Of a stretch of DNA of 64,000 nucleotides, positions 8,834 to 62,633 are shown in pieces. A program made the translations under genes and the position numbers. The first letter of the stretch is position 1. Every line of letters begins with the position of its first letter. Below the pieces are notes generated by a model that did not search any database, was not told where the DNA came from, and worked only from the letters and a program-made list of their open reading frames with translations. This DNA is from Solirubrobacterales bacterium 67-14 (lineage in GTDB: Bacteria; Actinomycetota; Thermoleophilia; Solirubrobacterales; 70-9): the NCBI GenBank assembly GCA_001897355.1, contig MKST01000007.1, forward strand, positions 248,228 through 312,227, read 5' to 3'.

Positions 8834-8879
8834 GCCCTCAACCTACTTCGTGCCAGACCGACCCGGACCAGGATGCGGT

Positions 8880-8922
8880 GAGGTTGAAGTTTGGAGCGCT
8901 ATGTGGCGGAAACTTCAACCTC
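8880..8922. repeat. 43-nt hairpin repeat, copy A
   Basis: GAGGTTGAAGTTT-GGAGCGCTATGTGGCGG-AAACTTCAACCTC; perfect 13-bp stem; homologous to copies at 22259 and 62488. Confidence 0.85.
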
Positions 8923-8992
8923 GATGCGTCCGGAGCTCCGATTCGTCGTTTTCGGCCAGGCGGTGTGTTCATATCGCGGAATCTCACACAAG

Positions 8993-22253: not shown

Positions 22254-22258
22254 CCACT

Positions 22259-22301
22259 GACCTTGAAGTTTCGAGCGCTATATGGCCGGAATTTCAACCT
22301 C
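22259..22301. repeat. 43-nt hairpin repeat, copy B
   Basis: GACCTTGAAGTTT-CGAGCGCTATATGGCCG-GAATTTCAACCTC; between convergent genes. Confidence 0.85.
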
Positions 22302-22314
22302 ACCGCAGGCCAGG

Positions 22315-24020: not shown

Positions 24021-24124
24021 AGTTCGAAATCGCCCCCGGCCGACGGTCCAGGCGCCGACAGCCGAGTTATCGGCAAATAGGTCTGAAAACTAGGCTGTGG
24101 GCCGCTTTGGGCCCGACGTCGAAG

Positions 24125-62436: not shown

Positions 62437-62487
62437 GCGGACCGCTAATTCTAACACCGAAAGGGCGGCTGGAGGTTTGCCGGCAAT

Positions 62488-62530
62488 GAGGTTGAGAATT
62501 CGAGCGCTATTTGGCCGAAATCTCAATGTC
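62488..62530. repeat. 43-nt hairpin repeat, copy C
   Basis: GAGGTTGAGAATT-CGAGCGCTATTTGGCCG-AAATCTCAATGTC; compensatory changes relative to copies A and B. Confidence 0.85.
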
Positions 62531-62633
62531 GGTGGGGAGAGGCTAGTTTTCTCGGGGATTCCTGGGGTTCCGGGAGCCGGGACTGTGCGGATGTTGGGCG
62601 AGCCGGGGGAAGCGAGTAGTTAGTCTCACCGAC

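Follow-up and report, generated by a model that had tools for sequence, protein, structure and literature searches.

Intergenic hairpins and nuclease genes bounded by matching hairpins point to a REP-like class of mobile DNA with an unrelated enzyme

Which kind of element is an intergenic hairpin that recurs within one stretch of DNA with an invariant loop core and a variable stem? This question is raised by a 64-kb window (the whole stretch of DNA analysed here) from Solirubrobacterales bacterium 67-14, for which an earlier note, made from the letters alone, had described three elements of 43 nt and had offered a structured RNA, a protein-bound DNA hairpin or a small REP/MITE-like mobile repeat as explanations. 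All three elements were recovered, each with the exact core GAGCGCTATNTGGC, which starts at positions 8894, 22273 and 62502 and does not occur a fourth time within the window. Solo hairpin A of this family (F1) spans 8876..8926 on the + strand (core GAGCGCTATGTGGC, 8894..8907), i.e., the formerly described 8880-8922 plus outer stem bases whose pairs are conserved genome-wide, and its stem of 13 bp is perfect, as had been reported. Solo hairpin B (22255..22305, + strand; core GAGCGCTATATGGC, 22273..22286) lies about 2-5 nt past a stop codon with convergent genes on either side, and solo hairpin C (62484..62534, + strand; core GAGCGCTATTTGGC, 62502..62515) has a tRNA-Met on one side and the next gene on the other. 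Upon RNA folding of the + strand, the 43-mers of A, B and C gave z-values of -5.3, -3.5 and -4.1 against dinucleotide shuffles, while folding as single-stranded DNA with flanks was good for A and C and poor for B. An Rfam scan of the window at the gathering score matched tRNA solely and no hairpin family; the earlier note had not recognised a named family either. A simple terminator, which that note had also considered insufficient, is not supported, copy A having neither a U-tract nor a terminator call and no T run immediately following the stem in the sequences of B or C. Next to these, the window holds one solo hairpin of a second family (24058..24098, + strand; loop TCGGCAAATAGGTCTGA; DNA fold z = -4.3), which is the family flanking a paralogous nuclease gene of the source genome (G000 C11:494390, locus L055/L062).

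Within the source genome (G000; 3.23 Mb, 12-contig assembly, 95% complete) 21 exact copies of the F1 core were identified and none with the reversed-pattern control, so further copies, which the earlier note had made a test of its family, do exist. All 21 copies possess one hairpin geometry, in which the 14-nt core lies between a first arm of 15 nt and a second of 16 nt, and their conserved and paired extent amounts to about 51 nt, reaching about 4 nt beyond the 43 nt on each side, whereby the formerly given length holds for the inner part of the element. The common orientation reported for the three copies is restricted to the window, since 16 copies are oriented forward and five reverse genome-wide. 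The conserved foot of the 21 copies reads C-R-N-Y-GAG and contains neither GTAG nor CGTC. When species of the same genus are compared, the core is unchanged and the stem letters differ (e.g., CGAGATCGGAAAAGG-core-CACTTTTCCGATCTCG versus TGAGGTTGAAGTTTG-core-GGAAACTTCAACCTCA). Across 39 F1 hairpins, 494 of 585 stem cells are paired (best of 500 shuffles, 433) and 110 cells carry changes on both sides of the stem (shuffle mean 46, maximum 70), these being distributed over 12 of the 15 stem pairs; the shuffles leave relatedness in, yet whole stems are replaced between hairpins. The drift of the stem that had been described is compensatory, and the sequence comparison argues for a stem that is selected as a paired stem. 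Ten further core matches fetched at the levels of genus, family and order come without a hairpin and were discarded as chance matches by their appearance. With regard to neighbouring genes, crude gene calls place a stop codon within 60 nt on the 3' side of 12 of the 19 solo F1 hairpins of the source genome (L226-L244) and on the 5' side of three, i.e., an oriented preference toward gene ends by such calls. Local GC skew around the same 19 solos gave no clear answer as to a replication-strand bias.

Two of the F1 copies are mutually inverted and located 1,165 bp apart (G000 C11:869188 and 870353), thereby enclosing one gene (C11:869232-870188) for a protein of 319 aa, the single gene of such size between these hairpins. 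An inverted F1 pair around the nuclease gene was also identified in two other genomes (G015 and G012), the encoded proteins being about 50% identical. Pfam assigned the C-terminus to MTES_1575/DUF559, that of the flanked gene product included, and the N-terminus of several homologues to AbiEi_4. PADLOC and NCBIfam returned AbiEi N-terminal or weak generic matches and nothing else for the nuclease. Residues S222, E225, D252, E263, D265, H270 and D279 are invariant in 26 diverse homologues. The AlphaFold model of the protein (pLDDT 93) matches the AbiEi antitoxin 6y8q, and its C-terminal part matches I-Bth0305I, an EDxHD homing endonuclease, in the catalytic domain (3r3p, TMt 0.73), with Vsr being a lower-ranked structural match. 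Considering this model, the F1-flanked protein is predicted to combine an N-terminal AbiEi-type winged helix with a C-terminal Vsr/EDxHD-type endonuclease whose active-site motif is intact. Inside the hairpin-gene-hairpin cassette, neither a DDE, serine, tyrosine or HUH recombinase nor an AbiEii partner gene was found. A profile search of the genome contigs with a narrower alignment yielded 15 loci, mostly in Solirubrobacterales MAGs, which likewise make up most of the relatives named from this search.

The arrangement is not confined to F1. The source genome holds eight paralogues of the nuclease, and five of these (C2:37115, C11:494390, C11:380780, C5:10568 and C2:379581) possess near-identical hairpins on both sides, the loop being different for each. 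Among 38 homologues with usable flanks, surveyed from genus to order, 20 share a repeat on both sides above the 99th percentile of a null of 1,406 mismatched flank pairs, with the loop being specific to each nuclease type, and two further homologues below this threshold are visibly hairpin-flanked. In a draw of 150 Actinomycetota genomes, the shared flank repeat surpassed the 99% null for 19 of the 29 best homologues, about a dozen of these repeats being clear hairpins and the rest weak or tandem repeats. The mismatched-flank test detected no flanking repeat in almost half of the homologues, which are for the most part distant. Every flanked gene that was examined encodes the nuclease. Typically, one hairpin copy lies 70-180 nt upstream of the nuclease gene and the second, near-identical copy past its stop codon, whereby the pair is either direct or inverted. 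Hairpin similarity correlates with nuclease identity (Mantel r = 0.54, 0/5000 permutations), a correlation of which genetic linkage alone would account for some part. Three observations on repeat anatomy may be added. Both flanks of one homologue (L211, G061) are long, partly tandem repeats and not a single hairpin. A further hairpin family (GTGGGTCGGATTTCCGG...CCGGAAATCCGACCCAC) has several copies close to the C8:43370 paralogue and solos elsewhere (L065 = G000 C8:41000-47000, L015, L117, L118). Solos of the L063 family (L151-L154) share longer common flanks (GCCTCGGAGGC...CTCCCGAGGC), a sequence pattern which suggests larger composite repeats around the hairpin.

If the hairpins depend on the nuclease, dispersed copies should accumulate where the cognate nuclease is present. 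As a blind prediction test, two loops were taken solely from nuclease flanks and then searched in genomes. The loop from G014 was found at seven sites in G014 itself (two flanking, five dispersed), at one site each in G001 and G012 and at none in 15 others; that from G037 was found at eight sites in G037 (two flanking) and at none in 13 other genomes, with reversed-loop controls giving zero for both. Dispersed copies with the L061 loop reside mainly in the nuclease holders G000, G015 and G012, with a few weaker matches in G001 and G010, and those with the L063 loop in G000 only among the stretches scored, both counts being lower bounds because they are side matches of two locus searches in which scoring covered about 16 candidate stretches in each genome. 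F1 hairpins are also present in genomes for which an F1-flanked nuclease was not detected (e.g., G003 and G007), which relics or incomplete assemblies would explain.

Comparison of orthologous sites revealed a rapid change of occupancy, whereby the species compared are diverged such that presence or absence is legible, and insertion junctions with any target-site duplication are not. The spacer between tRNA-Tyr and sigA (gene names by-eye readings of the sequence) carries an F1 hairpin in the source genome, an F1 hairpin of opposite orientation in G001 and none in G007, G010 and G013. The site of hairpin A is empty in G011 and G013 and filled by a different hairpin in G015, and in G001, G007, G010 and G012 (L215, L216, L217, L218) it holds a putative VapBC/FitAB-type antitoxin-PIN toxin pair, named by eye; by its appearance, this spacer is an insertion hot spot. 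The spacer of hairpin B contains an L061-type hairpin in G015, and several other relatives are without any. Finally, a spacer next to a conserved gene, putatively glmS as judged from its C-terminal codons, is occupied by four different cassettes in G000, G007, G011 and G012 and by none in G001, G010, G013 and G015, with flanks that are 73-90% identical. Hairpins and cassettes thus come and go at orthologous sites and are therefore not part of the adjacent genes.

The association between nuclease and hairpin is strong. The explanation which we favour, at a probability of roughly two in three, is that the hairpins are non-autonomous mobile repeats that are spread in trans by the cognate AbiEi-EDxHD nuclease, the gene of which is located between two copies. 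Causation, the cleavage chemistry and the target-site structure are what we infer here, together with the nuclease being the mover, its cutting at the hairpin, folded DNA as its substrate and the repair route. The suggested mechanism assumes that each hairpin family would be recognised by its own nuclease of about 320 aa via the family-specific loop and the paired stem, most likely on the extruded palindrome (cruciform or single strand). Next, the nuclease would cut at the recognised hairpin, whereupon host repair would copy the hairpin into other intergenic sites; the hairpin-gene-hairpin cassette may be copied by the same host repair, less often than the hairpin alone. Against nuclease-driven spread it has to be said that about 20 cuts in the chromosome would do harm if they were not kept under tight control. 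The F1 hairpins in genomes without a detected F1-flanked nuclease and the homologues without a flanking repeat likewise speak against it.

The main rival to nuclease-driven spread is homing, in which the hairpin would be the target of the nuclease and the gene would invade it via double-strand-break repair, the solos having spread by another route. Here, a hairpin copy would be present on each side because the gene enters the hairpin by such repair, hence the anatomy of a gene between two hairpins is the expected product, and both the resemblance of the catalytic domain to I-Bth0305I and the presence or absence of cassettes at one site in different species fit well. However, the number of solos follows possession of the cognate nuclease, which is unexpected for a pre-existing repeat, and the solo hairpins themselves are gained or lost, wherefore homing is considered possible but unlikely. 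The AbiEi domain, being a DNA-binding antitoxin/regulator fold, and the copy typically found upstream of the gene would also be compatible with palindromic operators of an AbiEi-type winged-helix regulator, the dispersed copies constituting its regulon. Such a function is rendered improbable by the second near-identical copy past the stop codon, by solos between convergent genes and beside gene 3' ends (as judged from crude gene calls), by sites gained or lost between species and by the invariance of the catalytic residues.

Still less probability is assigned to a structured RNA, a terminator or an mRNA 3'-end stabiliser, for which good RNA folding energies and the frequent location of hairpins just past a gene stop could be claimed. 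The missing U-tract and terminator call at copy A, the lack of an Rfam family, the divergent and tRNA-flanking contexts and the linkage to a DNA endonuclease all speak against an RNA reading, as do the different loops carried by sister species in the same spacer; a dedicated RNA role, as once offered, is thus without support. The attC integron sites, a further candidate judged by core order, were dropped. The least credible explanation assumes ordinary REP elements moved by an overlooked RAYT: the genomic behaviour indeed equals that of REP/RAYT systems (PMC2817692), but the 95% complete genome lacks a Y1_Tnp domain, for which the control genomes were positive, and each flanked gene examined was the nuclease.

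Of the guesses offered initially, nuclease-driven spread retains the small REP/MITE-like mobile repeat, in line with the many genomic copies and their presence or absence at orthologous sites, with a protein-bound DNA hairpin being probably part of the same picture. Known REP/RAYT systems (REPtron, TnpA-REP) are characterised by a gene flanked by cognate repeats, fast co-variation and abundance tracking (PMC2817692; PMC8266576), and the hairpins resemble them as many-copy intergenic palindromes with a gene between two copies, repeat-gene co-variation, fast turnover and a gene presence that tracks the abundance of the cognate repeat. They differ in that the enzyme is an AbiEi-wHTH plus Vsr/EDxHD endonuclease and not an HUH Y1 transposase, in that the defining feature of F1 is an asymmetric core of 14 nt and that of REP a GTAG/CGTC foot, and in that the hairpin pair may be direct or inverted. 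The search for a RAYT-like transposase, proposed along with the original description, gave no Y1_Tnp (PF01797) in the source genome and positives in five control genomes, the linked enzyme being the DUF559/Vsr-like protein instead; the system follows REP/RAYT logic but the Y1 enzyme is absent, so it is REPtron-like in its working and not a REPtron. With EDxHD homing endonucleases such as I-Bth0305I and with Vsr, the nuclease shares the C-terminal fold and the invariant E, D, ExD, H and D residues (PMC3943268; PMC6083498 for the fold of the homing enzymes), but it is free-standing, fused to AbiEi, accompanied by cognate hairpins and dispersed solos, and not located in an intron or intein. Homing endonucleases are characterised by cleaving an empty allele and copying themselves into it; for the nuclease such an activity is putative, empty and filled orthologous sites being what was observed. 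The N-terminal AbiEi domain (6y8q; PADLOC AbiEi matches) relates the protein to AbiE type IV toxin-antitoxin systems, from which it departs as a lone gene between hairpins with an attached nuclease domain and without an AbiEii nucleotidyltransferase toxin. MITEs and IS elements with terminal inverted repeats offer the parallel of non-autonomous copies next to an autonomous cassette; here, in contrast, the ends are complete self-complementary hairpins, and the cassette contains none of the DDE, serine, tyrosine or HUH recombinases.

An earlier description of the MTES_1575 Vsr domain concerns giant HEPN-containing proteins, in passages that do not speak of hairpins (PMC3710099); in the open-access literature no earlier report was found that connects palindromic repeats with proteins of the DUF559 or AbiEi type. 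The novelty would accordingly be the enzyme class serving the repeats, and if any palindrome plus nuclease pair counts as one kind, the system is a REP/RAYT variant. We lean, with some reserve, toward the wider claim that an AbiEi-EDxHD single-protein nuclease without a known recombinase fold both mobilises its own gene, bounded by hairpins, and gives rise to many loop-specific hairpin repeats. Such elements would form a class of mobile DNA extending across the phylum Actinomycetota, in which the REP/RAYT lifestyle would have been invented independently and the specificity of the nuclease would be rewritten together with its loop.

DUF559/AbiEi-type proteins recur across actinobacterial genomes, and DUF559 is still listed by Pfam as a protein of unknown function; these proteins now gain a likely substrate and role. 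The hairpins, together with related nucleases bearing matching hairpins, point to a class of mobile DNA, so far without a description in the open-access literature searched, that resembles REP elements and uses an unrelated enzyme. Should the hairpins indeed be mobilised by the nuclease, this enzyme would belong to none of the DDE, HUH, serine and tyrosine classes of mobile-element enzymes, and the many natural nuclease-hairpin pairs would be available for decoding sequence recognition. The same system could account for other unnamed intergenic palindromes in Actinomycetota.
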